Shown here: one piece after another, positions 4,401 to 29,499 of the stretch
Position numbering within the stretch: the first letter of the stretch is position 1
Layout of the letters: every line of letters starts with the position of its first letter
Virus record (IMG/VR): IMGVR_UViG_3300006754_000062
Coordinates: 1 to 35,179 of that record
DNA length: 35,179 nt
Direction: 5' to 3' (one strand)
From: a virus
Notes under the pieces: generated by a model
Databases searched by the model: none
What the model saw: only the letters and a program-made list of their open reading frames with translations
What the model was told of the DNA's origin: nothing
Program-made: the position numbers and the translations under genes

Positions 4401-7243
4401 AGAATAGTAGATACAGAAGACGATTGTGTTACAGGTATTCCTGACACCGGATATAACGGTGAAACATTAGATGCGGTGTCAAAAGGAAAGTTTGCCATCT
4501 CCATATATACTCCCGCAGGAACATATAAGTTTTGATTAGTATTAGCAGGATCAGGGATAGTAATAAAGTTCGCCTCCTGAACTTCTTTTCTTAATACGGT
4601 GGCATATACACATGTTCCTACTGCGCCATTGGCATCAGTTTTTACTATAAGCTTATCTCCTGCCTCTACCTTTTGAGCGTTCTCTCCGTCTAATAAGAAA
4701 TAAGTTACTAGTGTTCCGGGAGTTGAACCGGTGGCAGCATTAGAAGAATTGTCGGGAGCGGTAAAAGAGTTTTTTGCATATATAGTCTCATACCCTTCTT
4801 CACTAGGCTTCATCGCAAATTTAAAATTTGTCGCCCATTGTGGAGCAGCCATGGTCGGAGGAATAATAATACGAGCTTGATTTACTTTATCTGACATAAA
4901 GCATGGAACAAAAAGATTACTTCCCGATTGACCTCCCTGAACTCCTCCCGAAAGTTGGTTACTTACTATTGGTGTAGTAGCTCTATTCCAATCGTCCATA
5001 TAAATGATTCCCACCTCATAACCTCTATTACTGTGTAGACTTTTGTTATCAGAAGCATTGACTATGTTTGCAGATATAGATATAAACTTAGGAACTACCA
5101 CAGCAAAACTCACTAATCCTGTAGATCCGTCAGGATTAATCGGATTCGCAGGAACATTAAGAGGAACATATACCATGGGATGTAGCCATAGTTTAAATTT
5201 AGTAGGATCATTAACCATAGCATCTGCACCGATAGCCATAGTCTCTGACCCCGAATCTCCCTGTGCGGGTCCTGTTGCCGGCGGCACTTCTGAAGCAGAC
5301 AGGTATTTATAAGTGCTTCCGATAAGTCCTGTTTGCATACTTAAGGCATATCGTGCATTAACAAGGTTGGTTAAATTATACCCACCATTTGTGCCTGATG
5401 CAACTGAAGCCTCTGCGTTAAAAGGTTGAGCAACAAAAGGACCTATAGCCGTTCCTGTTCCAAGTGCCTGCTGAAAATCAATACTTGACACCATCTCTGT
5501 AACATCAGCATAGTCTTGTGGTAGTGTCCAACTAAAATTTACGGTACTTCCATTTGCAAAAGGATTTGTGCTCGGTGGATTTCCCAAATACGTATTAAAA
5601 GCAAATGGTGGGACATTAGTCCATTGCCAAAAAGGGTTAGCCCGATCCATTTGAAAAGTTAAATTAAGAGTAGATCCTGCCGTTAATGGTATATCTGCAA
5701 AATCCATCTCTACTTCATTGTCCGGAATATTTAGATATGTTTGTCCATACACCTCTCTGTCTCCCGGGCCAAAAGTGGTGATAGCATTTTGAAACCCTAA
5801 CTCTTTAGAATCTAAAACAGTTTCATATATAGGATTAACAATAGCATCAAACTTGTTTACCAAATTATACTGTTCTTGATAATTACCATACATCAATCTA
5901 TTGCCCATAATAGTTTGTGCTTTAGCTACTATAGGAACATTATCATAAAGTCTAAGGATTTCATACTCAGGAAGCACAGTATAAACCTTGGTGTTATCAA
6001 AATTAATAGTATACGTACTATTATTAAGAAGACCTAATTGATTTTTATTAAATCGATCTATAATTTTAATCAGTGAAGTGTCGGAACTTTTAAACACCAC
6101 CTCAATATCTGTCACCAATCTATCTCCTGTTTCAAACAACACAGTTACTGCGTTGTATTTATTAATCATCCCCTCGTTTAAATCACTGTCTTGGCTATAG
6201 AAAAAAGGTTCAGTAGCAAAAGCGATTTCACTAAATGATGATAATGCAGAAAACTCTCCACCTTCATATCTATATCTAGTGGCAAAAGAAATCATTTTAT
6301 CTTCTATGTAATTTCTCTCCGTACCGTTGTTAATTAAAGTAATATTAGGGGAAGTGGTTGGTGGCTCTTTAATAACCATTATCTCTTTAGCTGTAAAGTT
6401 ATCACAACTTGTAGTGGGGTTTGTTTGTGGTGGCACAGGGGCACTGACCACAGGCTCTCCATATTGTTTAGTAACATCTATAACTCGTGGAGGGTTATGG
6501 TTGTCAGTAAAAAATAAAAAATTATCTATTAGATTAACCCCTGTAATTAAATTGTTGGGGTTGAAATTTAAAGTTGTATTCCATTGAGTGGTACAGGGAA
6601 TACAATCGTATACACTAATAATATGATATATCAAATTTTGACTGTTCACATTATAGGATAATATCATATCCATCCTATGTGTATTTTGATAAATAGTATA
6701 AGCAGTTCCCGGCGCAGCAAACATATCTCGTGATAAAACTAAGACGGTGTTACCTGTTATAGCAGTTACATAAGCAAAGTTAATAAATGGAGGAACTGTT
6801 CCATCCTCTACAACAATAGCTCCCACAACTGTTCCGTCAGTTTCAAAGGTAGCTCCTCCGTCTACTAACTCACTAGGAGATAAAGCTGTATTTGTTCCTG
6901 TAACAATCGCTGCTCCCAACGGAGCACCATCAGGATATGCCCCCATCCATGATGGGTCGTGAACAAACCAATAAATAGTTTCATTAGCTTCGTCTGCATA
7001 TTTACCTATACATGTAGCCGAAGGACTGAGAGGAGTGGAATAAGGATTTCCCGGCAGAGGGAAAGATATAGTAGGGGTAAGTTCAATGTTTCCTTTTGCA
7101 TTTTCAACTGAACCGATCTCTGAATTTTCTGTAGACCCAAGCCTTACATTTTGAGCATTGACATACTCTCCATTCTGAAGTAATCTTTCATCGATAGACT
7201 TATTCATTCTACCGGCCACAAAATTTCTTTGAGTCTTTGCCAT
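1487..7243 (-). CDS. Giant virion protein, tail stabilisation/muzzle-like
   Basis: A protein of 1918 residues and the longest gene in the window. The N-terminus (RNFVAGRMNKSIDERLL, then NVRLGSTENSEIGSVENAKG) matches a start I recognise from very large tail proteins of crAss-like and related podoviruses, annotated as stabilisation or muzzle proteins. Residues ~120-186 hold a small beta module also seen in the 334-residue connector and in the protein at 27300..27803. The central region is Asn/Gly/Thr/Pro-rich. The last ~130 residues are Cys-rich (CCDCSCGAGNYTC, then CGDGVGCTDCG), which suggests disulphides or metal binding. It follows the connector gene by 1 nt. A structural tail role is well supported by size, composition and position. 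The specific muzzle assignment is tentative. Confidence 0.8.
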   Translation of the reverse strand: MAKTQRNFVAGRMNKSIDERLLQNGEYVNAQNVRLGSTENSEIGSVENAKGNIELTPTISFPLPGNPYSTPLSPSATCIGKYADEANETIYWFVHDPSWMGAYPDGAPLGAAIVTGTNTALSPSELVDGGATFETDGTVVGAIVVEDGTVPPFINFAYVTAITGNTVLVLSRDMFAAPGTAYTIYQNTHRMDMILSYNVNSQNLIYHIISVYDCIPCTTQWNTTLNFNPNNLITGVNLIDNFLFFTDNHNPPRVIDVTKQYGEPVVSAPVPPQTNPTTSCDNFTAKEIMVIKEPPTTSPNITLINNGTERNYIEDKMISFATRYRYEGGEFSALSSFSEIAFATEPFFYSQDSDLNEGMINKYNAVTVLFETGDRLVTDIEVVFKSSDTSLIKIIDRFNKNQLGLLNNSTYTINFDNTKVYTVLPEYEILRLYDNVPIVAKAQTIMGNRLMYGNYQEQYNLVNKFDAIVNPIYETVLDSKELGFQNAITTFGPGDREVYGQTYLNIPDNEVEMDFADIPLTAGSTLNLTFQMDRANPFWQWTNVPPFAFNTYLGNPPSTNPFANGSTVNFSWTLPQDYADVTEMVSSIDFQQALGTGTAIGPFVAQPFNAEASVASGTNGGYNLTNLVNARYALSMQTGLIGSTYKYLSASEVPPATGPAQGDSGSETMAIGADAMVNDPTKFKLWLHPMVYVPLNVPANPINPDGSTGLVSFAVVVPKFISISANIVNASDNKSLHSNRGYEVGIIYMDDWNRATTPIVSNQLSGGVQGGQSGSNLFVPCFMSDKVNQARIIIPPTMAAPQWATNFKFAMKPSEEGYETIYAKNSFTAPDNSSNAATGSTPGTLVTYFLLDGENAQKVEAGDKLIVKTDANGAVGTCVYATVLRKEVQEANFITIPDPANTNQNLYVPAGVYMEMANFPFDTASNVSPLYPVSGIPVTQSSSVSTILPDGELVANICPSLNYRGLSGPNNINVAPPYGMSIPQGTSVKIGLRWFRKGTVGGSGVGGQAEWRFHKRFIADQTYPDIITLFNDMNVHAYMVSEGEQLYSACGGGVTIDYDPLLAPVANPANAWILPQYDCDTNECTIFLQWAVMAGGEIQFLVRAGGGNSENNKIECAFDISFKEEIVVFETPAKPANPDLWYEGSDVYPIDVTTGSHQGIAGNNDVSQVVGTAVTGTTGVFNLSFFNCFAFGNGVESYKVNDSLSGRYFSLGQRVTATANEDYRRAHRYADITYSGIINNETNINKSNEFNLGLVNWKSLEDSFGKVQILSGRDTDVLVLQEDKISYVLAGKNLLSDSSGGGTVASVPEVLGTQIARTERYGISNNPESYVEFGLDKFFIDEKRGAVLNLRGSSSQNEQLQVLSEYGMRSWFRDAFNGELTSSINIYTQKLGGFDPYMNEYVVSLTDRPIFFTPGECDVVISDIETEQDIIACGTPLEITTEGTLTPIVFYVEFPEDGEGAVGDVIWNFNLTPTAAGGVTQAYIQVEWNNSSVLPGGLPILLTSNPPPPNTVTWSKLTAIPTTATVTITPNTASVFTINSTLDCATPTLIDIDTVLYTSQRNCPAENVATYYDPINGPDALCLQAPIITWQWQTSTLTGNINQQVVEYESAWPVGLISNIESIYQTPIGALGYPQYPYVPDGMGGVGFNAGGGWNNTQWQQLTQGAPNGAPMTGDTVEIIVDVQSLGPGGNALGTTANFIFDITKHSLRYLRTNTDYDRTNQQDAVTLLANSTQITGVDFFSWDDINNVWVPALSGALKYRGVFTMPAPIAPNPDPNLYIVVDIRERQSEWLCYDPGAIGVSSLLEGVCCDCSCGAGNYTCYQLKAKNAVYDYDFEVITPGSAPATDIVTLPAYSSLEEGSCITVCSSTYPYFNPNQFPQEGMTVDSIVEISVQSCGDGVGCTDCGTPTVPYTPGTCT

Positions 7244-7244
7244 T

Positions 7245-8171
7245 TTATTTTATCCACTTATCCCTTCCTCGTAGATTCATAAGCAATCTACCCGGATGAA
7301 TATTACTAATTCTGATTTTTGCATTTCGTAACAAAGCACTCTTTTCTTTTCGTGCTCGTGATACTATATATTCTTGAACCCCAAGTCTTGATGATATAAT
7401 AGCGTATCGTATATAGGCATAAACAAATTCTTCAAATAATTTATTAACAGAAACCTCTCCATCATTTCCATTCGCCATACCATCTGAAACATATTCAAGG
7501 ATACATTCTTCATTGGCCATAGTAGAATCAAAATTAATAACACCCGCTTGCTTATCAATAGTAAATGTAGGATTAGCATTAGCTGTTTCTGTATTTAACC
7601 CAAAACGTGCTCGGCTATGGTAGTCAAAATACCACGCCCCATCACAGCAGTAACCATAAACCCCATTGAACATAGGATTATTCTTGTTTAAATAAATACT
7701 TTTTTTACTTCCCATGATTCTATCATGGTCTAGCCCTGAGTATTGAGGCATTAATATCTCTCCGTTTTGAGAAAATAATATCTTGCCGGTATCATCCTGT
7801 AAGTATTCATGAGCACTTGCCACCTGAATATTTTCTGTTAATGGCCTGATGTATCCGTCTTTATATAAAGATATCCTTACCCAATTAACATAATCCGATG
7901 GTAATATAAACCGTAATGCCACATCTACTGTTAACTGTAGAGCTTTTATTTCTTTAAACGCATCATAGTTCAATTCTTGTATTGCTCTCTTAGCGTGGAA
8001 CAACACCTTATATCTCTCTTCATTGTTAATGATATTATGATTATCATTATACATTAACATAAAGTTATTTACAATGTCTTGTAGTTTTACATACTGATAT
8101 GATCCCCAATTCTCATCTGTAGGAATCGTACCACTATTAGTGTAATATTGAAATTGAGATAAATACGTCAT
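7245..8171 (-). CDS. Tail connector/ring protein candidate (308 aa)
   Basis: A protein of 308 residues whose start overlaps the stop of the 334-residue gene by one base (TAATG), so translation is probably coupled. Residues ~25-75 are helical (QDIVNNFMLMYNDNHN, then KVLFHAKRAIQELN), followed by a beta-rich middle containing LPSDYVNWVRISLY. The C-terminus is basic and helical with YIRYAIISSRLGVQEYIV. In crAss-like and other podoviruses two or three proteins of this size lie between capsid and tail genes and form the head-tail ring stack, often annotated as tail tubular or ring proteins. Position, size and pairing agree with that. No catalytic motif is visible. Confidence 0.75.
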   Translation of the reverse strand: MTYLSQFQYYTNSGTIPTDENWGSYQYVKLQDIVNNFMLMYNDNHNIINNEERYKVLFHAKRAIQELNYDAFKEIKALQLTVDVALRFILPSDYVNWVRISLYKDGYIRPLTENIQVASAHEYLQDDTGKILFSQNGEILMPQYSGLDHDRIMGSKKSIYLNKNNPMFNGVYGYCCDGAWYFDYHSRARFGLNTETANANPTFTIDKQAGVINFDSTMANEECILEYVSDGMANGNDGEVSVNKLFEEFVYAYIRYAIISSRLGVQEYIVSRARKEKSALLRNAKIRISNIHPGRLLMNLRGRDKWIK

Positions 8172-9175
8172 TATTCTTCACTTTGTGTTTCGTTCATATC
8201 TTGTGTAGCTCCAAACTTATATATCTCTACTTCTCTAATTGACATTCCTGAGTATTGAAGTATAAGAGATATTAGATCTACCTGATTATCTTCAGGCACT
8301 TCAAAGTCTTGATAGTCAGGAGCACTTGCATTAAAGATTGGAGTTGATGCCACTAAGTTATATGTCCATTTAGGAGTTTTAGGATAACGTATATATTGAC
8401 AAATAACATCACCCTTTTTATTTATAGTTGATGGATATACGGTTGCTGTCTCTGACACCCCTTCGCTTAATACATAAGCAGGATAGGTTCTAGTAGGAGC
8501 AGTAAGCTGAGAACTTGTTAGATTAAATATTTTATATTGACTAACTTTTTCTACCTCAACTATATTGTTGGCATCATATATTCTATAGTCCTGCCCCACA
8601 TAAGGAATAGCACCTGTAGACATAATATCCGCACTCAAACTTAATTCAGACACTGAGTCTACTGCAGTAACATAAGCGGTTAGCATAGGGTCTGTAGGAG
8701 CTCCTATTGGACTTGTATTAACAACAATACTTCCCACCGGTGGAGACTCAGGAATACCCGGAGCGGTTATCACAAACTGATTTAACGTAGTATCTACAAG
8801 TTTGCCCGCAACTTCTGCGGTAGTTGTACCACTGTATAGCAACGTAGGATAGAAATATAATTTATTAACAAAGTAATAATCAAGAGGTAGATTGTAAAGG
8901 TTAGCTGTATTAGTAGTAGAGGCAGGTTGATCCAAAACCTGTGTCTTAGCAAAGATAGCTATATCTTGCTCTATGCCACTTTTTATATCAGCATACCCTA
9001 TCCCTGACTGCCTCATATTTTCTTTATTTATTTGATGATTATAAGAATAAAAGAAATCTTCAAATATAGAAAGTTGTGCTTGCGTAGCAAACAAGTTAAA
9101 GTCAGCAGGTGTTACATATCCATAATTATTTTTATTTAATACAGAGAGGACTGTACTATACACTTCATCAATCAT
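8171..9175 (-). CDS. Tail connector/ring protein candidate (334 aa)
   Basis: A protein of 334 residues. The N-terminus is helical (MIDEVYSTVLSVLNKNNYGY). The segment YVTPADFNLFATQAQLSIFE is a pattern I associate with small head-tail connector proteins of Bacteroidetes phages. Residues ~122-201 form an inserted beta module: KLVD, VGSIVVN, YVTAVDS, LSLSADI, YRIYD. It is shared with the giant tail protein and the 167-residue protein at 27300..27803. The gene has its own TATCTTTG promoter box only 4 nt before the ATG, so its message may be leaderless. It is the first gene of the tail block. The connector role is inferred from order and size. Confidence 0.75.
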   Translation of the reverse strand: MIDEVYSTVLSVLNKNNYGYVTPADFNLFATQAQLSIFEDFFYSYNHQINKENMRQSGIGYADIKSGIEQDIAIFAKTQVLDQPASTTNTANLYNLPLDYYFVNKLYFYPTLLYSGTTTAEVAGKLVDTTLNQFVITAPGIPESPPVGSIVVNTSPIGAPTDPMLTAYVTAVDSVSELSLSADIMSTGAIPYVGQDYRIYDANNIVEVEKVSQYKIFNLTSSQLTAPTRTYPAYVLSEGVSETATVYPSTINKKGDVICQYIRYPKTPKWTYNLVASTPIFNASAPDYQDFEVPEDNQVDLISLILQYSGMSIREVEIYKFGATQDMNETQSEE

Positions 9176-9179
9176 AAGA

Positions 9180-9187
9180 CAAAGATA
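9180..9187 (-). promoter_or_regulatory. Late-type promoter box TATCTTTG before the 334-aa connector
   Basis: Box ends 4 nt before the ATG at 9175; preceded by an A/T tract, with no TTTG at the usual -33 distance. Confidence 0.65.
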
Positions 9188-9213: not shown

Positions 9214-9567
9214 TTAAGGGGGACAGCAAAACTGAGTAACGGCCACTGATCTAATACTAATAGGTTGTCCTGTAGGATTAAAACAATTAGGTAATTGTGT
9301 AGGCAAAGAAAAAACTTCACTCTCTCCACTTTGCAGTCTTTCTATTTGTTTAGTCAAAAAAGTTATCACACTATAATCTCCGGAAGCTAATGCATCCGAT
9401 AAAGTTAGTTCTGCCCGAACATTGCCGTGGTAAACTATCTCTACAGCACTAACACCATTTGGAATAATAGATACAATATTATCAGCACCCACAATTATTT
9501 CTGCCGACTTTGAACCTACTCCTGAAGCTGCATAAGCAGAGGTATTAACAATTAAATATTTAGACAT
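9214..9567 (-). CDS. Small virion-cluster paralogue F (117 aa)
   Basis: The last of nine consecutive ~100-125 residue proteins that begin M-[x]-[x]-[KRF]-[YF]-[LF]-x-[FIV]. It starts MSKYLIVNTSAYAAS. A beta-rich first half (DNIVSIIPN, then VEIVYHG) is followed by a helix (DALASGDYSVITFLTKQIERL). It diverges most at the C-terminus, which ends VAVTQFCCPP. It lies 1 nt after paralogue E and ahead of the connector gene. Position between capsid and connector genes suggests a virion component such as a decoration or fibre-base protein. No function can be read directly. Confidence 0.65.
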   Translation of the reverse strand: MSKYLIVNTSAYAASGVGSKSAEIIVGADNIVSIIPNGVSAVEIVYHGNVRAELTLSDALASGDYSVITFLTKQIERLQSGESEVFSLPTQLPNCFNPTGQPISIRSVAVTQFCCPP

Positions 9568-9568
9568 A

Positions 9569-9946
9569 TTAAGTTATCGTTATAGTTGATACTGAAACAT
9601 TAGCCCCTCCAATATCTACAAAGGGAATTGTTGAGGGGTATTGTCCTGTTGCAGGATCTTTAGGGCCACCGATAGTGGTCGCTTCCGCTACTGTCTCCCA
9701 ATCTTCTCCTGCAGTTGTTATGCTGTTATGGGCACTTGCAAATTTTTCTATAAACCAATTAGCCCATTTATATTCTTCTGCTATTACTACAGCTCTATTT
9801 AAAGTGATAGTAGCTTTCTTTCCATTGGAATAATAAATAAACAAAGTGGTTAGAGTATTTCTCGTGTCCTGCATAATTCCTACTATACCATCTACTGATA
9901 AGTATGTAGGATATCCTCCTGTTCCTATTATAAAATATCTTCCCAT
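9569..9946 (-). CDS. Small virion-cluster paralogue E (125 aa)
   Basis: A member of the nine-gene KYLRF family that starts MGRYFIIGTGGYPTYLSVDG. The family layout is visible: a short N-terminal strand, a second strand at DGIVGIMQD, a strand pair at TTLFIYYSNGKKATITLN, a helix at EEYKWANWFIEKFASA, and a C-terminal strand ending in TIT. A loop with a Gly/Pro stretch (GGPKDPATGQYPSTIPF) is unique to this copy. The TATCTTTG box ends 5 nt before the ATG and directly follows the terminator of paralogue D, so E and F form their own transcription unit. Role unknown. Confidence 0.65.
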   Translation of the reverse strand: MGRYFIIGTGGYPTYLSVDGIVGIMQDTRNTLTTLFIYYSNGKKATITLNRAVVIAEEYKWANWFIEKFASAHNSITTAGEDWETVAEATTIGGPKDPATGQYPSTIPFVDIGGANVSVSTITIT

Positions 9947-9951
9947 AACTA

Positions 9952-9959
9952 CAAAGATA
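9952..9959 (-). promoter_or_regulatory. Late-type promoter box TATCTTTG before paralogue E
   Basis: Box ends 5 nt before the ATG at 9946 and follows the terminator's T-run. No -33 TTTG. Confidence 0.65.
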
Positions 9960-9961
9960 AT

Positions 9962-9986
9962 AAAAAAAGGGGACTAATGTCCCCTT
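9962..9986 (-). terminator. Rho-independent terminator after paralogue D
   Basis: On the minus strand AAGGGGAC-ATTA-GTCCCCTT followed by a T-run. It separates paralogue D from the E-F unit. Confidence 0.9.
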
Positions 9987-10011
9987 CTTCACCTAAGTAG
10001 CGATTTAGCTA

Positions 10012-10338
10012 TTAAGCTAATGCAATACCTGTAATTTCAGCATCTGCACCTAAATTGTCAACTAAACCTACTAAACTAACATCATATCTAGGGTTAGTCC
10101 ATGAAGTTTGAAGAGCTGCAATTATAGAGTCCTGAACACGGTCTCTAGCTGATACATCATTAGCCGTAAAAGCTACCGCAAAAGTAATAGTTGCCACATC
10201 TGTTGCTGCATCAGAACCTGAGTAAGCAATAGTTACTGTTGTGGTGCTAGCTTGTTCAACGATTATAATACCGTCTACAGCTAATAATTGTGATGTTTCC
10301 CCTGTCGCTGTTATAGGGAATGATAAATACTTTTTCAT
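10012..10338 (-). CDS. Small virion-cluster paralogue D (108 aa)
   Basis: A member of the nine-gene family (MKKYLSFPITATGETSQLL). Strands at DGIIIVEQAS and TTVTIAYSGS are followed by the family helix at SARDRVQDSIIAALQTSW and a closing strand EITGIALA. It is rich in Ala/Thr/Val and low in charge. It has a separate promoter box (TATCTTTG at 10380-10387) and a ~40 nt leader containing the small hairpin GAGA-N4-TCTC. It is followed by a strong rho-independent terminator, so it may be expressed alone at high level, as decoration proteins often are. That role is inference. Confidence 0.65.
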   Translation of the reverse strand: MKKYLSFPITATGETSQLLAVDGIIIVEQASTTTVTIAYSGSDAATDVATITFAVAFTANDVSARDRVQDSIIAALQTSWTNPRYDVSLVGLVDNLGADAEITGIALA

Positions 10339-10379
10339 AATAAAAAAAATTGAAAAATTTTGTGAGACTATTCTCGCTA

Positions 10380-10387
10380 CAAAGATA
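10380..10387 (-). promoter_or_regulatory. Late-type promoter box TATCTTTG before paralogue D
   Basis: Box with ~41 nt leader to the ATG at 10338. No -33 TTTG. Confidence 0.65.
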
Positions 10388-10401
10388 ATAAAATATATTT
10401 A

Positions 10402-10701
10402 CTATGTAGAGATGATATCTCCAATAGCATACTTAGAAGGAATAGGGACATCAATAAAAACCTGAGTATAGGAAGTTTGCTCTGCTCTTATAATAGTATC
10501 GTTAATTATGTCTACCAAAGCTCCATCAAAATCAATACCATTAGCCCCATCTCTTTGAATGTTCCACTCTTCGCTTGCTGTTGCATAAGGAACCGAACTT
10601 GCGTGAATAGTGTTCACGTCAAACAACACCACTAGGTCACATGCATTTGCATTTAATATTCTATCTCCATTCGCTGTCTTAAATCTTAAATACTTAACCA
10701 T
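10402..10701 (-). CDS. Small virion-cluster paralogue A1 (99 aa)
   Basis: Type A member of the family and the third gene of the downstream copy of the duplicated C-B-A cassette. It starts MVKYLRFKTANGDRILNANA. Its counterpart A2 (11386..11694) shares KxLRFxTANGxRxLNxxAC near the start, FDVNxIH in the middle, a family helix with IINDTIIRAEQTSYT, and VDVPIPSKYAIGDII at the end (PSKYALQDLI in A2). The two A copies resemble each other far more than they resemble the adjacent B and C proteins. Function unknown; probably a virion protein from its position. Confidence 0.7.
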   Translation of the reverse strand: MVKYLRFKTANGDRILNANACDLVVLFDVNTIHASSVPYATASEEWNIQRDGANGIDFDGALVDIINDTIIRAEQTSYTQVFIDVPIPSKYAIGDIIST

Positions 10702-10705
10702 CTTA

Positions 10706-11014
10706 TTAAATTACTAAAGTCACTGAATCTATTATTACACCCGGGAAATCTACATCCACATACGATTTAGTATATCCTCCTTGACAGAGCTTCTCTATTG
10801 CATTAGTTATAACATTGCGAGTAGCCTGCTCATCAGCACTAAGACTCCCCCCTGAGGTAAGAATAAGGACCTTGGAACTAGCTGCCGACACGTTCTCTGA
10901 AAATAATAAATACATTCCGCCGGGGGCAGTAATTTCCATTATGCCTGATAAACTCTCAGCTTTTACTAATACCCTCCCTGTAGTAGTTGTATTAAATCTT
11001 AAAAACTTACTCAT
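10706..11014 (-). CDS. Small virion-cluster paralogue B1 (102 aa)
   Basis: Type B member, second gene of the downstream C-B-A copy. It starts MSKFLRFNTTTTGRVLVKAE. It pairs with B2 (11694..12008): both have a GxIEI/GIMEI strand, an N-terminal half with MYLLFSEN or VVIYFGAG, the helix ATRNVITNAIEKLCQGGYTK (B2: TRTRQIFHDALNKLYSTSYT), and a hydrophobic end (VIIDSVTLVI against VINGIVIIV). Spacings to A1 and C1 are 4 and 2 nt, so the genes are one operon. No motif for a known enzyme is present. Confidence 0.7.
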   Translation of the reverse strand: MSKFLRFNTTTTGRVLVKAESLSGIMEITAPGGMYLLFSENVSAASSKVLILTSGGSLSADEQATRNVITNAIEKLCQGGYTKSYVDVDFPGVIIDSVTLVI

Positions 11015-11016
11015 AT

Positions 11017-11382
11017 CTATGTGGCTCTTTGCACTTCAGTTAATACTAAATTAAATACAACACCTGCTGCCCCTAAAGGTATTTTAATCCCATCCGTAGT
11101 TCCTACATCTGCATATACATCATTGTTTCCTTCTGCACATAACTCGGTGATAATGTTCGAAACATGAGAGACTAACTCGTAACCTATAGCTCCTAGATCA
11201 GGAGTAAATGTTAAAAGTATTTGAAAATCTTTAGAGTCTCCATAAAAAAACACTAAGTCAAAATCTCCTCCTCCTGTATTATCAAAAGTTAGCGTTGTCA
11301 TTTTACTTACGTTAATAAGCACATGTTGCGCTGAAGCTGCCGGAGCAAGTGATGGGGAATAAAACCTTAGATACTTATTCAT
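11017..11382 (-). CDS. Small virion-cluster paralogue C1 (121 aa)
   Basis: Type C member, first gene of the downstream C-B-A copy. It starts MNKYLRFYSPSLAPAASAQH. It pairs with C2 (12011..12370): both contain a Gly-rich turn (NTGGGDFDLVFFYGD against NGGAGDTEIRFFMEP), the acidic/aromatic segment LTFTPDLGAIGYELV (C2: MSFAPAFDTEKWDFV), the helix SNIITELCAEGNNDVYADVG (C2: SNEIKDLCRTGNRNVVKDIG) and an extended C-terminal strand region. The C type is longer than A and B by an extra C-terminal hairpin. Role unknown. Confidence 0.7.
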   Translation of the reverse strand: MNKYLRFYSPSLAPAASAQHVLINVSKMTTLTFDNTGGGDFDLVFFYGDSKDFQILLTFTPDLGAIGYELVSHVSNIITELCAEGNNDVYADVGTTDGIKIPLGAAGVVFNLVLTEVQRAT

Positions 11383-11385
11383 TAT

Positions 11386-11694
11386 TTACGGATAGTTTAT
11401 TAAATCTTGAAGCGCATACTTGGAAGGAATCTCAACATCGACTACAGCCTCAGTATAAGAGCCTTCAGCCGCCTTTATAATAGCATCATTAATATATCCT
11501 ATCAGCTCGCCATCAAACGAATCACCGGTTGCGGCAACACGCTCAAGTTTTCTAACCACTAATGTACCGATAGTATTGGTGGGAACATATTCAAAATGTA
11601 TTTCATTTACATTAAACCTTTTAATAATAGTGCATGCCTCGACATTTAATAGTCTCACTCCATTAGCTGTATTAAATCTTAAAAACTTTATCAT
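11386..11694 (-). CDS. Small virion-cluster paralogue A2 (102 aa)
   Basis: Type A member, third gene of the upstream C-B-A copy. It starts MIKFLRFNTANGVRLLNVEA. It shares its beginning, its middle (FNVNEIH) and its end (VEIPSKYALQDLI) with A1, which lies three genes downstream. Its start codon overlaps the end of B2 by one base. Compared with A1 the loop around residues 45-65 differs, as expected of a surface-exposed variable segment in a duplicated virion protein. Confidence 0.7.
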   Translation of the reverse strand: MIKFLRFNTANGVRLLNVEACTIIKRFNVNEIHFEYVPTNTIGTLVVRKLERVAATGDSFDGELIGYINDAIIKAAEGSYTEAVVDVEIPSKYALQDLINYP

Positions 11695-12008
11695 TATACT
11701 ATTATTACTATACCGTTAATAACTGTATCAGGCCACTTTAATTCTACTATATTATTTGTATAACTCGTAGAGTATAATTTATTGAGCGCATCATGAAAGA
11801 TTTGTCGGGTTCGAGTCGCATTAGTTTGAACCGTTGAGCCTGCTCCAAAATATATTACAACATTACTCGTTCCATTAGGTTCTTCTAAACATGGTATAGT
11901 AACCTGTGTCTCACTATCAATTTCTATTAAGCCCACCCAATATTGAGCACTCAAAAGCATCTTCCCTTGGTTGTCTGTTTCTATTTCTAAAAACTTGTTA
12001 TCTATCAT
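11694..12008 (-). CDS. Small virion-cluster paralogue B2 (104 aa)
   Basis: Type B member, second gene of the upstream C-B-A copy. It starts MIDNKFLEIETDNQGKMLLS, with two extra residues before the KFL core. It matches B1 in the helix region and in the hydrophobic C-terminus (see B1). It lies 2 nt after C2 and overlaps A2 by one base, so the cassette is tightly coupled. No recognised domain. Confidence 0.7.
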   Translation of the reverse strand: MIDNKFLEIETDNQGKMLLSAQYWVGLIEIDSETQVTIPCLEEPNGTSNVVIYFGAGSTVQTNATRTRQIFHDALNKLYSTSYTNNIVELKWPDTVINGIVIIV

Positions 12009-12010
12009 AT

Positions 12011-12370
12011 CTATCCTCTATTTATATCTACAAAAGAACACTCATGTACAACACCCGAACTATCTTTCCAAGTAATAGTGCCTGTGCCTTCCACATCTCC
12101 AATATCTTTTACTACATTTCGGTTTCCTGTTCTACATAAATCCTTTATCTCATTACTAAGAAACTGAACAAAATCCCACTTCTCAGTATCAAAGGCGGGA
12201 GCGAAACTCATGGCTACATATTGACTATTGGTAGGCTCCATGAAAAACCTTATCTCTGTATCACCTGCTCCTCCATTATCGGCCTGTATAAAAGAGATAC
12301 GATTCACCGGCAAGAGGTAGTCTTGTATTGCCACCGGCGCAACGCCTCTAAATCTCAAATACTTTTTCAT
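12011..12370 (-). CDS. Small virion-cluster paralogue C2 (119 aa)
   Basis: Type C member and first gene of the array. I place the start at the ATG at 12370 (MKKYLRFRGVAPVAIQDYLL), because the longer frame begins with TTG inside the promoter region and every paralogue starts M-x-x-[KR]-[YF]-L. The TATCTTTG box (12377-12384) ends 6 nt before this ATG, which also favours the shorter form and a leaderless or near-leaderless message. It pairs with C1 along its length. It lies 25 nt downstream of the 249-residue gene. Confidence 0.7.
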   Translation of the reverse strand: MKKYLRFRGVAPVAIQDYLLPVNRISFIQADNGGAGDTEIRFFMEPTNSQYVAMSFAPAFDTEKWDFVQFLSNEIKDLCRTGNRNVVKDIGDVEGTGTITWKDSSGVVHECSFVDINRG

Positions 12371-12376: not shown

Positions 12377-12384
12377 CAAAGATA
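12377..12384 (-). promoter_or_regulatory. Late-type promoter box TATCTTTG before paralogue C2
   Basis: Box ends 6 nt before the chosen ATG at 12370, preceded by a run of T. No -33 TTTG. Confidence 0.65.
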
Positions 12385-13224: not shown

Positions 13225-14688
13225 CTATTCTTGGAATAGAACAAAGTTGTTCGCACCCATAGTACAAACACATCTTTCTGATAAGAAGTTTACAGTCATC
13301 GCATCGATATTATCTGTCTTTGCGCCTCCTGCAGAACCTGTCAACCATGTTTTGTATCGTCTGTCTTCAGTTTCTGAAGCACGATATCTAACATGTAAGA
13401 AAGGTCGTTTTGCATTCTTACCTAAGATTTGGTCATAAACAGAAGTAGAACCTGCCGGTACTAATAATCCATTTACTCGACCTGAGCCTGCACCTGTTGG
13501 CAAACCACCTCGCATAGTTGGGTCATTTAAGTATTTCCAATCAGACTTGTAGAAGTCATATCCTCTTCGGAATCCTGTGAATCCTAGATTTAATGCCATC
13601 TCTTCATCATTATCGAAAAGACCATAAGACGTACCACCTGCACCATAAGAGTTTTGAGCTGCTAACATATCGTCAATATCAAAACCGAAGTTTCTGTCAA
13701 CGAATACAACATTCTCCTCAATAGCACCTTGGTTGTCTAGTCTACCAATGATCGCATCCCAATCAGCTAATGCTGTTGGATTACCACCACCCCAAACATT
13801 TCCTCTGTCTCCAACAACAAAGAACACACCTTCGGAACCCATAAAGTTTGCTGTAGCTGCACCTGATAGATTTTCTGCCGGTACTGCCTCAATCATCGAT
13901 GTCTCAAGATAGTCGTCAAAACGTAATCTTGTTTCATGCTCTGATTTTAGATACCATAGGAATCCTGAAGCACCATCTTCTGTGCTAACTTCAATCCATC
14001 CGATTTGAGCCATATCAGAACCACTAACCTCGTAAGTATCTTTTAAGATGATAGGATTATTTTTAAATATATAATCATCAGCTTCTAAAGACCCTACCAT
14101 TCCCGGAGTTCCTTTTCTAAACTCTGAACCGTAGATAAAGATAGTTGTATCAGCGTTACCTGCACCTGTACCTGCTGCTACCTGACCACCCGCTTCGTAG
14201 TAGTCTACAGTAAATGTAGTAGCTGTAGGAACAGCAGTAACAATACCTTTGTTGCTACCTGCACCATTATTAAAGACAATCATTACTGTTTGCCCTACTC
14301 TAATTGATATTTGGTTAGCAGCATTGTATGCTGTTGCCGGAGTAGTAACAATACCTGCACCACCTGCCGGAAATGCACTATCATTCACTGTCCATGTTGC
14401 CTGATTTACTCCTGCTATCGCCACTGTACCACACTGTGTAAACTTAGTATGTAACCGTCCTTGTTCTGCCCATTTTATTTGGTCAGAAATAGAAGGTAAT
14501 TCTGCACCTACTAATCTCAAGAACGATGAGATTGTTCGGTTGCCGTATCTTTCAAATTCCTTTTCATAAGTATCGGGTAGATACTGATTCAAGAAATCGA
14601 AATTCGTAATATAATTGCTAATCGTCGGGGTCTGCGTACTGCTTGGCTGTAAGTCAAAACCCGGCGTAGCTAACATTGAACCTGCCAT
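13225..14688 (-). CDS. Major capsid protein (HK97-fold, crAss-like type)
   Basis: A protein of 487 residues. The start MAGSMLATPGFDLQPSSTQT is followed by NFDFLNQYLPDTYEKEFERY and GNRTISSFLRLVGAELP, a run I recognise from MCPs of marine Bacteroidetes and crAss-like phages. Residues ~85-185 are a Gly/Ala/Thr-rich beta insertion (VGQTVMIVFNNG, GIVTAV, FTVDYYEAGG) that probably forms a surface domain. The second half is typical HK97-fold P-domain-like sequence. It follows the scaffold candidate by 29 nt and ends in a strong terminator. Order terminase-portal-scaffold-MCP supports the call. This is the most likely client of the phage chaperonin, which is inference. Confidence 0.9.
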   Translation of the reverse strand: MAGSMLATPGFDLQPSSTQTPTISNYITNFDFLNQYLPDTYEKEFERYGNRTISSFLRLVGAELPSISDQIKWAEQGRLHTKFTQCGTVAIAGVNQATWTVNDSAFPAGGAGIVTTPATAYNAANQISIRVGQTVMIVFNNGAGSNKGIVTAVPTATTFTVDYYEAGGQVAAGTGAGNADTTIFIYGSEFRKGTPGMVGSLEADDYIFKNNPIILKDTYEVSGSDMAQIGWIEVSTEDGASGFLWYLKSEHETRLRFDDYLETSMIEAVPAENLSGAATANFMGSEGVFFVVGDRGNVWGGGNPTALADWDAIIGRLDNQGAIEENVVFVDRNFGFDIDDMLAAQNSYGAGGTSYGLFDNDEEMALNLGFTGFRRGYDFYKSDWKYLNDPTMRGGLPTGAGSGRVNGLLVPAGSTSVYDQILGKNAKRPFLHVRYRASETEDRRYKTWLTGSAGGAKTDNIDAMTVNFLSERCVCTMGANNFVLFQE

Positions 14689-15902: not shown

Positions 15903-18365
15903 CTACCTCGGTTCAAACTCTGACATATCAAATCCGTCTAAGCTATCCTCATTTGACTCAAACATCTTTGCTGTAGTTGTTTGTTCAAAATTTTCAGGAG
16001 GTAGGTTATTTTTTCTTTGACTTATGAGTTTACTCTGCTGAGTGTTCTGTTGGTTTATTCTTTCCGCTTTAGCAAATTCTCTTTGATCTTCTCTCTGCTG
16101 TAATGCTCTCTCCGATGTGTCTCTTAATTGCATGTTATAACCAAACTCTTTATCCATAAGTTGAGACTTTAACATAGCCTCCTGTTTCATCTTCTCTATT
16201 TCAAAAGCAATCTCTGCTTGCTTTATTTTCATCTTCGATTGAGTTTCTGCTTCCATCTTTTGCATTGCCGCTTGTGCAGCCATCTGCTGACTCTGTTGGT
16301 TTATCTGAGCTTGAGCTTGCATCTTCATCATTTCCTGTTGCTCATCCTTTTCTTCTTTCTTTCTTCTTTTAAGTTTTAAAAGCTGATTGGCAAGTTTTAA
16401 ATTTCTAACCTCTCGTATATCAATAGCATCTTCTAAATTAATATCTTGTTTAGATAAAGCCATTTGTATGTTTTGTTCCAACTGAGCTTTCTCTTCTTCA
16501 TCAGGAGACACGTCAATAAAAATACCGAAGTCATATAGGTATAAATCTTTTGTGTCATTTAATATTGAAACATTATATTTTCCTATTTGATTTACAAAAT
16601 TTTCTTTAAAGTCAGAATACTCTAATATGTCCCCTACCCTATAAGACAATGCTTCTGCTAGACTTCTGTAGATAAATAAACTTCCATCTAATATATGCCT
16701 AGTCGCAGTATTAGAATTTAATGCAGCTAACTTCTGAATACCAACTAAAGAATTAGGATCAGGCGTGCTACCGTCTCTCGCTTCATTTAAGCCGGTTACA
16801 GCCCTAATCATGTTAAGATAATGATTATAGTTACCAATTAACATTTGCGTTTTGCTAGCTCCTGAATTAGAGGTTAGCTGAGTAATTGGAACTTTACCTT
16901 GGTTATAGTCTCCATCTTGAGTATAGCTTCTACCTATCACACTACCTGTTTGAAAATATAATCTCAACGCATCTTCGGGATTGTAAGCATTTCCTGTTCC
17001 TAGGTCTACTTCATTTAATCCGTCTGCATCAATAAACACACCGTCCGGTACAACTCGTGATATAACTTGTTGAAGTTTTAAATGAGTAATCTGAATTAAG
17101 TCAGCAAAAGGAATCATTCGTCTTACCAATGACTCAATAACACCCTTATACATTCTAGGAGCAACAGCAATATAATTAGGAATAGCATATTGATTAGCCG
17201 ACTTAGGTCTTACCATATTCTCTTCCAACTCCCACTTTAAAATAATATTAGTTCCCATAACCATTACGCCGGTATACCACACGTCAATAGTTTTTTCTAC
17301 CTTCTCAAAATTCCCTTCTTCCATCATTTCTTCAGGTGGATCGAATTGATCATCTTTCTCTATCATTTTTTCATTACCATTCTCATTAACCTTCTTCTTA
17401 TAAACAAACTTCTTTGTTGTTTTATAATTAAAATACATAACGGTAGCTGTATCTCTATAGAACATAGAGTCTTGATACATTTGGGCTGTATTAAAATAGT
17501 CATACCAACTTTGACTGTATTGAGATATTTCTTTTAAATCCTCGTTAGTTAGAGTTGGGTCTATTTTCTTTAGCTCAATAATGGGTAATGTCTTTATTTC
17601 ACCCCAATAAAAACAATCTTTAAAGTGTGGGTCTTCAGTGTAACTATATACCACATTAGCAGGATCAACATATTCTACGTTTACCCCGTCTCCTAATTGA
17701 AAGTTATGTTTAGCTACAGCAATTCCCAATACTGTTAAGTCATAATCAAATCTCTTTCTTAGGTCTACATATTTATTATTATCTAATAAAGTGTTAATAG
17801 CCTCCTCTTGAGCTATCTCAATAGCGGGCTTATAGTTAAGTTGCATATATAAGGATAGCTCTTCATCTGAAGCAGGAAGCTCGTTAGGATCCATAGAGTA
17901 AGGGTTAACACCCCCCCTCTTTTGTATAATATCAAGAACAGGTTTCGCAACCATCTGTCCCTCTATCATTCTTTGATAGGTGCTTCGCTTAGATTGAGAA
18001 ATAGCATCTTGAGCATAAGCATCTACTTTAAATAATCTATCAGACATTCCATTAACTACAATGTCAACAAACTTAGGAAGTATAGGAACAGGGGTCCAAT
18101 CTAAATTAAGATAAGATAAGTCTCCATCAATAGCTAATTCGTTTTTGTATTTACCTATTGATTGCTCTCCACGAGCATATAATCTTAACCTATTATATTC
18201 TCCCCATTGATTATAGAATCTACAGCTATTACTGTCTTTGCGAAACCATTCGTATTGTATAGCCTGACCTATTTGAAGCCCAAACTCATCAGTAGCTTTT
18301 TCTGCATCTGAAACAAATTGACTTGGAAACCCTGAGGCTTGTATGTTTATTTTTATATCTTTCAT
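15903..18365 (-). CDS. Portal protein (crAss-like type, 820 aa)
   Basis: A protein of 820 residues whose ATG overlaps the TerL stop (ATGA). The N-terminal half has a helical start and DGDLSYLNLDWTPVPILPKF, typical of the large portal proteins of crAss-like phages. The centre contains EYVDPANVVYSYTEDPHFKD and the long stem-like helix around VRRMIPFADLIQITHLKLQQ. Residues ~670-790 are Gln-rich and charged coiled coil (QQEMMKMQAQAQINQQSQQM), matching the long C-terminal barrel/crown of podovirus portals. It lies between TerL and scaffold. Length and order fit the family well. Confidence 0.9.
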   Translation of the reverse strand: MKDIKINIQASGFPSQFVSDAEKATDEFGLQIGQAIQYEWFRKDSNSCRFYNQWGEYNRLRLYARGEQSIGKYKNELAIDGDLSYLNLDWTPVPILPKFVDIVVNGMSDRLFKVDAYAQDAISQSKRSTYQRMIEGQMVAKPVLDIIQKRGGVNPYSMDPNELPASDEELSLYMQLNYKPAIEIAQEEAINTLLDNNKYVDLRKRFDYDLTVLGIAVAKHNFQLGDGVNVEYVDPANVVYSYTEDPHFKDCFYWGEIKTLPIIELKKIDPTLTNEDLKEISQYSQSWYDYFNTAQMYQDSMFYRDTATVMYFNYKTTKKFVYKKKVNENGNEKMIEKDDQFDPPEEMMEEGNFEKVEKTIDVWYTGVMVMGTNIILKWELEENMVRPKSANQYAIPNYIAVAPRMYKGVIESLVRRMIPFADLIQITHLKLQQVISRVVPDGVFIDADGLNEVDLGTGNAYNPEDALRLYFQTGSVIGRSYTQDGDYNQGKVPITQLTSNSGASKTQMLIGNYNHYLNMIRAVTGLNEARDGSTPDPNSLVGIQKLAALNSNTATRHILDGSLFIYRSLAEALSYRVGDILEYSDFKENFVNQIGKYNVSILNDTKDLYLYDFGIFIDVSPDEEEKAQLEQNIQMALSKQDINLEDAIDIREVRNLKLANQLLKLKRRKKEEKDEQQEMMKMQAQAQINQQSQQMAAQAAMQKMEAETQSKMKIKQAEIAFEIEKMKQEAMLKSQLMDKEFGYNMQLRDTSERALQQREDQREFAKAERINQQNTQQSKLISQRKNNLPPENFEQTTTAKMFESNEDSLDGFDMSEFEPR

Positions 18366-20566
18366 CGTATTAATGTACTTAATCTCCCTGTATTAGTATA
18401 CCTTGCAAAGTTAACACTTATTTTTGATTGTTTCTTTTGAGGTGAATAGAGGTGACGTTGAATGGCCATGATAGCTAATCCCGAGCTAATAGTTGCGTCA
18501 TGTCTAGTTCTACTTGTTATGTCAAATCTTGCCCAATCTTCTAAAGTTTTAGAAAACAACATCATACCCATTTCATCAGAAGGTCGGTACGTAGATTCAA
18601 GATCTAGCCCTACATGCTTTTCAATATAAGACTCTACTGCTGCCGCATGTGCTTGCTTTATATCTTCTGAAGTATTTGGTATACCTCCTAATTCTTTTTC
18701 TGACTTAGAAAGTTTTGCTCTATGTTTGTCCGGCCTGTTCATCGAGAAACCTCTATACCCCCTATTCTTTAAATGATAAAGTAATCTAGGTTTATTATTC
18801 TCAACTAGAATGGGCATTCCATAAAACACACAGGCCATTAATACTTCCTCAAAAAATATCTCTGCCGTTTGAGGTCGTGCAATATATTCTAAAAAGAACT
18901 GATTGCTTGGAGCTTCTTCCATACTAAATGTAGTCAATCCATGTAGAGCTCCGTTTGAACCACCCCCACCTACTGTTCCTGATATATCATAAGAGTCACA
19001 ACCAAACGCACCTATGTGGTCATTTCCCGGAAATTTCATTCCGTTTCTTTCTATAACATTATTCTGTAAATGTTTAGGAGGACTCCAACTAATTAAAAAC
19101 CTTCCCCTTTTATTCGGTGTCCATATAACTTTACTATCTTTAATTCCATTAGCCCACGAAAAAGAACCTCGTGTTAAAAAATGTTCAGGGATTAAAGAAT
19201 CATTATAATCTATTTGTTGATATATCTTAGTTAAATTAAATAAAGATGATTTACTCTCATCTCTAAATGCATGAGACTCTGTTCTTGGAAACTGTCGATA
19301 AAATTCATTCAGAGCATCAGCATCATTTTTTAACGAATCAACCTCTGCTTCCCAATAATCAATAGCTCCATTACGTATCCATTCACCATCAACTCCTTTT
19401 ACTTTTTCCTGTGGCTTACGAAATACAGGCTGTCCATAGACATCTATAAACCCTTCCATATTATACTCCATAGGAATAAATAAAGAATACAATCCACTTT
19501 TAGTTTGTCCATTTGCATTTCGTGAAGACAAACTAGAATCTTCAAATAGTTTCTTGAAATTTTCCCCACCTTTACTTAGTGCATTAGAGGTAGAACCCAT
19601 CATACATTTACCAATAATCTTACTACCTAATCGTAAACAGGTCTTGGTTACTCTCCAATTATTTAAGATGTTATTAGGCTTTATCCATTTACCACTTTCA
19701 TCGTGAACTAACAATAATAATTTCTCCCCATCATAAGAGTTATCGTCAGTGTTCTTCCAATCAATAGTAGTATCTAAACCTAATAGCTCATCATTGGTTG
19801 TGTCATACATATTCTTCTTAGTAATCTTAGCCGCCGGAACTCTAAAGGCTAATTCAGTTTTAGGTTTATCCATCCCATCTTGGATAGGTTTGAAAAAGAA
19901 TGGTAATCGATTTGATATAGGAACAACCTTGTCTGTAAACATTTTCTTTGCATCTGATCCGGTCTTAGATAATACCCCCACTCTTGAATCTTTTGCTAAT
20001 GTTCCAATATTAACACACTCTGAAGAACCCATATAAGAAAATCCTGAACGTCTAATTTTTAAATAAGTCATTCCAAAACATCTTGAGTCCGCCTTACACG
20101 CTTCCCAAAATAAAAAGAATATTCTATTAGCCTCACGATAATCAGGATACCCTACATCAATACTTGTCCATTGAAGATACATATAATGAGCCCCTGTTAT
20201 ATAGGTAGTAACTCCTTTATTAATAAACCATTCCCCGTACTCTCTTTTATCAAACTCTCCCTCAATATAATCTACCCACCTATTCTTAAAAGCAGAGTCC
20301 ATTGTGTTCCATTGAAAGATAGAGTTGATTTTAGAAAGCTGTTTAGGTAGCTCGTGACGTTGCCAATATTGTTTATCTTTAGGAGTTTTCTTTTTAGGCT
20401 TAATATACAAGGGAAGACCTATTCTTAATCCTGAGACATCTATAATATCTCCAACCTTTCCTGACTTAGAGATATTAACGAAGTCATACTTTTCATTATA
20501 CCCATACTTCCATGAAGAAGCTTTATTCTTTCGTGATAAAACTCCCTTGGGAATATAATCTTGCAT
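18362..20566 (-). CDS. terL: Terminase large subunit (packaging ATPase-nuclease)
   Basis: A protein of 734 residues from the ATG at 20566 (MQDYIPKGVLSRKNK). A longer frame begins with TTG at 20644 but lies inside the upstream gene, so I reject it. The ATPase half has a deviant Walker A around residues 172-177 (RRSGFS), Walker B at ~283-290 (LLLLVHDE, with D289 E290) and a coupling motif GSTSN at ~324-328. The nuclease half has an RNase H-like acidic set: D524 in GAFGCDSYD, E589 in PILVENN, and D690 in RTRHDATIS. It couples ATP hydrolysis to DNA translocation at the portal. The long form and motif variants are those of crAss-like TerL. Confidence 0.93.
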   Translation of the reverse strand: MQDYIPKGVLSRKNKASSWKYGYNEKYDFVNISKSGKVGDIIDVSGLRIGLPLYIKPKKKTPKDKQYWQRHELPKQLSKINSIFQWNTMDSAFKNRWVDYIEGEFDKREYGEWFINKGVTTYITGAHYMYLQWTSIDVGYPDYREANRIFFLFWEACKADSRCFGMTYLKIRRSGFSYMGSSECVNIGTLAKDSRVGVLSKTGSDAKKMFTDKVVPISNRLPFFFKPIQDGMDKPKTELAFRVPAAKITKKNMYDTTNDELLGLDTTIDWKNTDDNSYDGEKLLLLVHDESGKWIKPNNILNNWRVTKTCLRLGSKIIGKCMMGSTSNALSKGGENFKKLFEDSSLSSRNANGQTKSGLYSLFIPMEYNMEGFIDVYGQPVFRKPQEKVKGVDGEWIRNGAIDYWEAEVDSLKNDADALNEFYRQFPRTESHAFRDESKSSLFNLTKIYQQIDYNDSLIPEHFLTRGSFSWANGIKDSKVIWTPNKRGRFLISWSPPKHLQNNVIERNGMKFPGNDHIGAFGCDSYDISGTVGGGGSNGALHGLTTFSMEEAPSNQFFLEYIARPQTAEIFFEEVLMACVFYGMPILVENNKPRLLYHLKNRGYRGFSMNRPDKHRAKLSKSEKELGGIPNTSEDIKQAHAAAVESYIEKHVGLDLESTYRPSDEMGMMLFSKTLEDWARFDITSRTRHDATISSGLAIMAIQRHLYSPQKKQSKISVNFARYTNTGRLSTLIR

Positions 20567-20579
20567 AAGAGTATATAAT

Positions 20580-20861
20580 TTATTTTGATCTTCTTTCCGC
20601 AAATCCTTGTTTTGTTTGTGTTTTATCTGCACCCTTGCTTGCAATCTCTAAGCTCTCTTCTTCAGAATCTATTCTATTTAATATTTCAAAAGCATCAAAG
20701 ATGGCTAGCTTTTTAGTCGCCGCAGCATTTTTTAATCTATCCGCAGCCAACTCATCTTCAGGGTCAGGTTTTATAATTTCTTCTTTAGCAACTTTAATTA
20801 ATTGTCTAACCGCTTTCCTTCCGGCTTTTATAATTTCTAATTTTATTTCTTTTGAATCCAT
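20580..20861 (-). CDS. Small helical protein before TerL (terminase small-subunit candidate)
   Basis: A protein of 93 residues from the ATG at 20861 (MDSKEIKLEIIKAGRKAVRQ). The upstream extension reads into the neighbouring gene and is rejected. The sequence is all-helical and charged, with ADRLKNAAATKKLAIFDAFE and a following acidic run DSEEESLE. It ends 13 nt before TerL. A short helical DNA-binding or oligomerising protein here is the natural candidate for the terminase small subunit. I see no clear helix-turn-helix, so the call rests on position. Confidence 0.6.
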   Translation of the reverse strand: MDSKEIKLEIIKAGRKAVRQLIKVAKEEIIKPDPEDELAADRLKNAAATKKLAIFDAFEILNRIDSEEESLEIASKGADKTQTKQGFAERRSK

Positions 20862-29276: not shown

Positions 29277-29499
29277 TAGTATACTGCTCGTTATTTATCA
29301 TAACAGTATTCCCTGAGCCTTTATCATAGTATATAATATCATCAGTCTTTATAACCTCAACATCATTACCCGGTTTTATAACTTTACCTTTCTGATATCT
29401 GAATCCGCTTACATCTTCTTTAGATAATAACAACCCACCTTTGGTGGTTACTTGTTCTTCTATCTTATTAATTATAATATATTTTCCTATTGCTTTCAT
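29242..29499 (-). CDS. groES: Phage GroES co-chaperonin, roof loop missing
   Basis: A protein of 85 residues, shorter than the usual ~95-97. N-terminal strand MKAIGKYIIINKIEE; mobile loop at ~14-30 with the hydrophobic GroEL-binding tripeptide in KGGLLLSKE; then YQKGKVIKPGNDVEVIKTDD. The ~10-residue roof hairpin found between these strands in bacterial GroES is absent. The barrel closes with IIYYDKGSG, TVMINNEQYTIILEKN and a hydrophobic end VVVVL. It caps the GroEL ring during folding. The ATG overlaps the groEL stop by 4 nt, and groES is downstream of groEL, the reverse of the usual bacterial order. It is the likely partner of the adjacent phage GroEL. Confidence 0.9.
   Translation of the reverse strand: MKAIGKYIIINKIEEQVTTKGGLLLSKEDVSGFRYQKGKVIKPGNDVEVIKTDDIIYYDKGSGNTVMINNEQYTIILEKNVVVVL

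Follow-up and report, generated by a model that had tools for sequence, protein, structure and literature searches.

A cassette array of small paralogous genes in the head-neck operon of a flavobacterial podovirus, with a putative role on the virion surface

The window analysed here, a single virus record of 35,179 bases (IMG/VR record IMGVR_UViG_3300006754_000062, taken at its full length), carries nine adjacent minus-strand genes (9214-12370) that belong to one protein family and occupy a site at which related phages gain, lose and swap whole gene cassettes. Their products are probably accessory proteins of the virion surface, with capsid decoration as the likely role, exchanged between phages as transcription-unit cassettes; this virion location is proposed from gene context and predicted features. 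The nine genes, named here by type, and the extra cassette within them are as follows.

12011-12370, minus strand: C1, 119 amino acids (aa), first gene of the extra cassette; family profile E 6e-19
11694-12008, minus strand: B1, 104 aa; family profile E 1.5e-21
11386-11694, minus strand: A1, 102 aa; one-base overlap with B1
11017-11382, minus strand: C2, 121 aa; ortholog of the single C in four sister phages (80-81% identity)
10706-11014, minus strand: B2, 102 aa; 88% identical to the four sisters
10402-10701, minus strand: A2, 99 aa; 92% identical to the four sisters
10012-10338, minus strand: D, 108 aa; a widespread lone type, with X-Y in its place in sister L094
9569-9946, minus strand: E, 125 aa, first gene of module E-F; family profile match; 96-98% in sisters
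9214-9567, minus strand: F, 117 aa; family profile match; 91-92% in sisters
11383-12370, minus strand: extra cassette C1-B1-A1, 988 base pairs (bp), starting with the ATG of C1 and ending immediately ahead of that of C2; absent from sister L095

That these neighbours form one paralog family, as the initial annotation proposed, is confirmed by a single profile hidden Markov model matching all nine: the seven seed members score between 2e-16 and 6e-28, genes E and F are recovered at 2.6e-4 and 1.2e-5 by the profile whose seed excluded both, and nine matches are obtained again with another family alignment. The common N-terminus described in that annotation is likewise present, with the pattern corrected to M-x-[KR]-[YF]-[LF], i.e., one residue rather than two before the K/R; in gene E the L is replaced by F, and the B1 start is two residues longer (MIDNKFL). 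For C1 we adopted the ATG at 12370, where the C of the sisters aligns, and set aside the TTG at 12379 from the open reading frame (ORF) listing. When all pairwise BLASTP scores were computed, C1/C2 (30% identity, E 2e-17), B1/B2 (24%, 2e-13) and A1/A2 (48%, 5e-31) emerged as mutual best partners in collinear order, the best cross-type pair being A1/B2 at 3e-5, in line with the earlier reading of six of the genes as C-B-A followed by C-B-A.

The setting of the array was compared across viral contigs comprising the best 80 of 599 confirmed relatives by major capsid protein (MCP), 80 of 131 retrieved with the D-type gene, and sisters fetched with C and B. Both genes flanking the array, an upstream gene for a 249-aa protein and a downstream gene for a neck-position protein (the neck gene), are present in 152 contigs, 78 obtained via array-gene queries and 74 constituting the MCP-based set, which takes in four annotated phage records and one near-duplicate (L071, excluded from the tree). 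Duplicates, window fragments and unrelated contigs (L085-L088, L090, L091, L096, L097, L108) were left out before counting. Each of the 160 family genes that the profile found across the 152 contigs is located in the interval from the 249-aa gene to the neck gene; outside this number stand two genes that the profile missed, the F-like third gene of L001 (added manually for module typing) and that of a 562-aa protein in L070.

The load of this site varies widely, from 0 copies (34 contigs) through 1 (103), 2 (7), 3 (3), 6 (3) and 7 (1) to 9 (1), or, in the MCP-based set, 0 in 34, 1 in 29, 2 in 7, 3 in 3 and 9 in 1, the last being the window. On the MCP tree (74 rows, 40 carriers) presence and absence change at least 15 times. 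The most direct evidence comes from close pairs: L002 (no copy) and L004 (one copy) have identical MCPs and flanks that are 97% and 89% identical and meet at the stop of the 249-aa gene, and BLASTN breakpoints define further empty/filled pairs with near-identical flanks (L020/L023, L076/L077 and L027/L029). In sisters L095 and L094, the two sides are 95% and 99.5% identical and X-Y stands in place of D, with breakpoints at the start codon and immediately after the stop; L023 and L030 share 98% identity in both the MCP and the 249-aa protein and merely 30% in the small protein. Near-identical flanks with a differing or missing insert were thus found in five sister or relative pairs, as well as between L095 and the window, and the array site is a cassette-exchange locus where whole units are added, lost and swapped. 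Identity of the small proteins correlates with that of the MCP (0.38), the 249-aa protein (0.35) and the neck protein (0.10, an unreliable value since neck matches are often partial), and these figures do not indicate a partner.

Other genes are also seen in the same interval. In Maribacter phage Panino (L082, 11333-12436) it holds five annotated small ORFs that are unrelated, which suggests that the site may also admit other genes. In L072 (2624-3860) a 411-aa ORF takes the place of family genes, and its C-terminus resembles a sorting domain of the type IX secretion (gliding-motility) type.

Clustering of multi-copy contigs resolved the family into ordered modules, C-B-A in 5 contigs, K-L in 7 (two of them near-identical), X-Y in 4 and E-F in 6, with a constant gene order within each. 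Among the 103 single-copy contigs, 74 of which came from the D-type query, leaving those 29 in the MCP-based set as the independent portion, the best match is the D/L type in 94, K in 8 (26-32% identity) and the L185 type in 1. Types A, B, C, E, F, X and Y are the best match of none of the 103 and therefore behave as partners. A cassette would correspond to a transcription unit, in which a TAnnTTTG box and a short leader precede one, two or three small genes; this box is the reported -7 element of flavobacterial sigma-A promoters (excerpts of PMC9723704). The relevant elements of the window are given below.

12377-12384, minus strand: TATCTTTG, TAnnTTTG box before C1
10380-10387, minus strand: TATCTTTG before D
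9952-9959, minus strand: TATCTTTG before E
9180-9187, minus strand: TATCTTTG before the neck gene, at the downstream border of the locus
9963-9990, minus strand: terminator-like hairpin between D and E

Across the contigs, TAnnTTTG occurs within 80 nucleotides (nt) upstream of 113 of 118 first genes and in none of 27 within-module spacers. It lies strictly inside the intergenic spacer for 66 of the 118, falls within the last 60 nt of longer spacers in 59 of 116 cases (6.6 expected from shuffles), and precedes the neck gene in 150 of 152 contigs. Sigma-70 type promoters in the region stay at the chance level (17 found vs. 17.4 expected). Downstream of the box, the leaders before D and X (L095 8515-8577, L094 1794-1856, window 10339-10401) contain a conserved inverted repeat, GAGAATAGTCTC, and are 76% identical despite the different gene types behind them.

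The extra C1-B1-A1 set of the window is an insert that starts exactly at the start codon. The DNA match between L095 and the window covers the spacer with the promoter and continues 21 nt into C before it breaks off; it resumes at C2, leaving the 988-bp insert. Four sister contigs (L089, L093, L094, L095) have a single C-B-A, 80-92% identical to C2-B2-A2 and followed by D (X-Y in L094) and then E and F; their MCPs are 98% and 95% identical to that of the window (in the two contigs where it is present) and their neck proteins 97-98%. Maximum-likelihood trees give the same shape for each gene, (C1,(C2,sister)), (B1,(B2,sister)) and (A1,(A2,sister)), all starred. Since C1-B1-A1 falls outside the (C2, sister)-type clades in all three, the origin of the extra set appears to predate the split between the window and its sisters, the two copies being by sequence far older than that split. 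The initial annotation had seen here the duplication of a whole operon segment: a three-gene segment is indeed present twice as a unit, the extra set being a divergent cassette of long standing at a site of exchange rather than a recent copy of its neighbour.

A tandem duplication of C-B-A inside this phage lineage, with the first set later lost by the sisters, would account for the head-to-tail order, the mutual best matches and the identical tree shapes, and we regard it as a serious though somewhat doubtful alternative. Identity within the window is 30/24/48% for C, B and A against 81/88/92% between sister orthologs, which does not fit a recent event, and the C of the more distant L092 (MCP 84%) is still 62% identical to C2; the copies would thus predate these splits and loss would be needed. 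The neighbouring D site, in turn, shows direct replacement of a module, and acquisition of a diverged set from another phage would take one event, even though its donor was not found: scans of viral contigs with A1 and with C1 returned no close relatives, while a scan with A2 matched the four sisters only (the match to contig L096 in one scan was to an unrelated contig and was discarded). GC content and GC at third codon positions (GC3) of C1-B1-A1 show no foreign signature, apart from GC3 being slightly raised in C1. In the tree of MCPs, the window and L095 group first with L001 (D plus E-F) and next with L008 (one lone gene), as if cassettes had accrued stepwise. An artefact of metagenome assembly could in principle produce a double cassette, and the junction does fall on the repeated start motif; this explanation is hardly credible, given that the repeat is inexact (several mismatches in 21 nt), that the genes of the insert are complete and have diverged from all copies found, and that their spacing and overlaps are gene-like. 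Assembly artefact and chance resemblance were both rejected.

The array is carried by the minus-strand head-neck operon of a podovirus, where it adjoins two neck-position virion proteins and the genes on the MCP side.

18362-20644, minus strand: terminase
15903-18365, minus strand: P22-like portal
listed between portal and MCP, minus strand: 377-aa protein
13225-14688, minus strand: MCP; PHROG 13704 ("virion structural protein"), homolog annotated as MCP in Cellulophaga phage Calle_1
12395-13144, minus strand: 249-aa gene, function unassigned; upstream border of the array locus in relatives
8171-9175, minus strand: neck-position virion protein, PHROG 14543; downstream border of the array locus
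1487-7243, minus strand: 1918-aa tail protein

The MCP is assigned from gene order and the Calle_1 annotation; excerpts of a proteomic study of phi38:1 list "gp067 putative major capsid protein" (PMC13288928), which would be GenBank gp093 if the numbering is reversed. The closest named relatives by MCP are MW202828 (62%), Panino (52%) and the Flavobacterium elemo phages (45%), followed at 39% by Cellulophaga phages phi38:1 and Calle of the Pervagoviridae. The MCP, portal and GroES homologs follow the order and PHROGs of phi38:1, Calle and the elemo phages. Judged from these similarities, the phage appears to be a flavobacterial podovirus related to the Pervagoviridae rather than placed in that family (MCP 39% to phi38:1). 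The MCP also occurs in metagenome-assembled genome (MAG) bins labelled Aenigmatarchaeota, Woesearchaeota, Aliivibrio and Maricaulis, besides Bacteroidetes (L184-L198), probably as misbinned phage contigs. A match of the 1918-aa tail protein to PF25731, the crassvirus muzzle family, narrowly passes the cutoff (27.7 bits against 27, E 1e-6) and may point to a crass-like tail tip in phages of this group. Elsewhere the phage encodes both a GroES-like co-chaperonin (20875-21441, minus strand) and a GroEL chaperonin (29496-31106, minus strand), 8 kb apart, and an endolysin-like peptidase M15 (25014-25493, minus strand).

A location directly upstream of neck-position genes could also suit ring adaptors of the neck or tail barrel, rather than proteins of the head surface, and the crassvirus tail barrel is built of paralogous ring proteins (excerpts of PMC10172136). 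We consider such a role quite improbable: ring adaptors should be needed for tail assembly, yet 34 of the 74 MCP-based contigs have no copy, and near-identical phages differ in copy number and type.

The AlphaFold2 model of D is of high confidence (predicted local distance difference test, pLDDT, 93; predicted template modelling score, pTM, 0.84) and comprises five strands, a helix and two further strands. Foldseek found no match to it in the PDB (best E 3.1) and, in BFVD, ten matches with E < 0.001 (best 4e-17; lengths of 91 to 546 aa among the matches listed), of which the named ones belong to uncultured viruses. These proteins (A0A516LYE6, A0A516LU06, A0A218MM70, A0A7S9STV3 of NIOZ-UU157 and others) share the predicted fold and are uncharacterised. 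Alignment with VIA-align 2 pointed to PH/PTB/FERM-F3 domains with Z up to 4.8, reached with 3ulc over 71 residues at a root-mean-square deviation of 4.3 (a weak likeness); crassvirus gp36 did not appear in this list, an absence that is uninformative. Searched against PDB chain sequences, the family profile gave nothing below E 1.8.

Three long proteins, of 504 and 562 aa in L070 and 280 aa in L063, all start with the first strand of the family. In those of 504 and 280 aa an insert separates the N-terminal M-x-[KN]-[YF] strand from the C-terminal half, both of which are retained; the profile covers residues 423-506 of 508 and 178-256 of 288, respectively, in open-frame numbering. The 562-aa protein has no profile match, its C-terminal end being alike by eye only. 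The 504-aa protein is poorly modelled as a whole; its residues 160-295 align with carbohydrate-binding modules of the CBM22, CBM4 and CBM29 families at Z 7-8, which agrees with, and does not prove, inserts that are glycan-binding jelly rolls. The share of lysine plus arginine is 6.9% in the nine proteins, 6.0% in the MCP, neck and muzzle-like proteins, and 11.3% in the upstream genes.

The initial annotation had suggested that the three types work as a hetero-complex, for example a mixed decoration or fibre-base layer on the capsid or neck. A virion-surface role would fit the position in the head-neck operon, the apparent dispensability of the genes, their low charge and the jelly-roll-like inserts of the long relatives. 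The array would then be an accessory, exchangeable part of the virion-assembly operon, with cassettes entering, leaving and replacing each other at one site bounded by the capsid-linked 249-aa gene and the neck gene. Homologous recombination would probably drive this exchange, acting on conserved sequence at the cassette edges, namely the leader, the start-codon region (ATGAAnAAnTAT...) and the terminator/promoter; the anatomy of these borders is observed, and the mechanism is our proposal. A common small alpha/beta fold would probably dock on the assembled head or head-neck surface, with variable loops, or jelly-roll-like domains inserted after the first strand, facing outward to bind glycans or shield the particle. 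Types kept in fixed sets (C-B-A, X-Y, E-F and probably K-L) would probably co-assemble, and in the window a divergent second C-B-A before the resident set would give six partners plus D, E and F. The full version of this scheme, in which phages of marine flavobacteria take up one capsid-docking fold at a fixed site in cassettes of one to three genes, hetero-oligomer sets are swapped as units and glycan-binding jelly rolls are grafted into the fold, so that display varies while the capsid stays constant, is a tentative one and somewhat less likely than not.

Several observations weigh against this interpretation. The annotated phage records that were searched include no carrier of the family, and for every member virion placement is a proposal. 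The flanking genes join directly in the cultured phages elemoF, phi38:1 and Calle_1 and also in MW202828, so the family seems not to be needed for a viable particle in this phage group; it is likewise missing from 34 of the 74 MCP-based contigs, as well as from phi38:1, elemoF, Panino and MW202828, and carriers might still depend on it. K-like genes standing alone in 8 of the 103 single-copy contigs weaken an obligate K-L pairing. A shared PH/PTB fold is not claimed because a Z of 4.8 is too weak, and the fold of the inserts is a lead only, as the pLDDT of the 504-aa model averages 56, or about 66 in the matched domain. Finally, own promoters, own terminators, and gain and loss would equally fit "moron" genes acting inside the cell.

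Phage morons have their own promoter and terminator, sit between operon genes, and are gained and lost. By analogy, the array genes could be moron-like accessory genes whose products act in the infected cell (anti-defence, superinfection exclusion, host takeover) and that are merely parked in the operon, as their promoter boxes, terminator-like hairpins, frequent gain, loss and swap, high divergence and small size would allow. We hold this to be unlikely, considering that the site is one and the same within the head-neck operon wherever both flanks are present, that long members carry jelly-roll-like insertions and that the charge make-up resembles that of virion proteins; in contrast to morons in general, the profile-found insertions here belong to one protein family and come in ordered paralog sets. 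PADLOC, whose models cover defence and not anti-defence, gave no match for the array proteins.

For accessory proteins of the virion surface, the closest structural idea, offered as an analogy, is crassvirus AUX gp36. In excerpts of PMC10172136, phi-crAss001 gp36 has a PH-like capsid-binding domain interrupted by a second domain; similarly, long relatives in the present family split their fold with an insert, the best neighbours of D (Z 4.8) are PH/PTB/FERM-F3 domains, and the 1918-aa protein of the window matches the muzzle family PF25731. The differences are that the family has no sequence match among PDB chains, that the structural likeness is weak, and that gp36, as presented in those excerpts, is one capsid protein, whereas we find from 0 to 9 apparently dispensable paralogs in swappable cassettes. 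The same source describes two types of crassvirus head fibres, gp21 and gp29, in two kinds of hexon pocket, and we conjecture that several small-protein types might similarly serve several quasi-equivalent sites. Viral decoration proteins, according to excerpts of PMC7602432, are accessory, often small and bound to the capsid surface, some with extra immunoglobulin-like domains and some dispensable for infectivity. The array proteins are comparably accessory and small, with surface binding as a proposed further likeness; they differ in that D has no Foldseek match in the PDB, and these excerpts make no mention of swappable multi-gene paralog cassettes.

The nine genes appear to constitute a new protein family, because none of their products has an above-cutoff family match in Pfam, PHROGs, NCBIfam or PADLOC, queries with C2 and with three D types returned no relative from 50,697 phage records (one chance-level match, E 9), and no account of the locus was found in the literature on Pervagoviridae/Callevirus, NIOZ-UU157 and decoration-protein cassettes, as far as the excerpted sources (including PMC8776804) extend.

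Overall, if the proposed virion-surface role is correct, abundant marine phages would alter what they display, with the capsid gene untouched, by moving ordered sets of paralogs between phages. The family would likewise represent a natural collection of small display scaffolds that take whole domains in one loop, and the idea of a hetero-complex becomes testable, in that types kept in fixed sets should fail to assemble alone.

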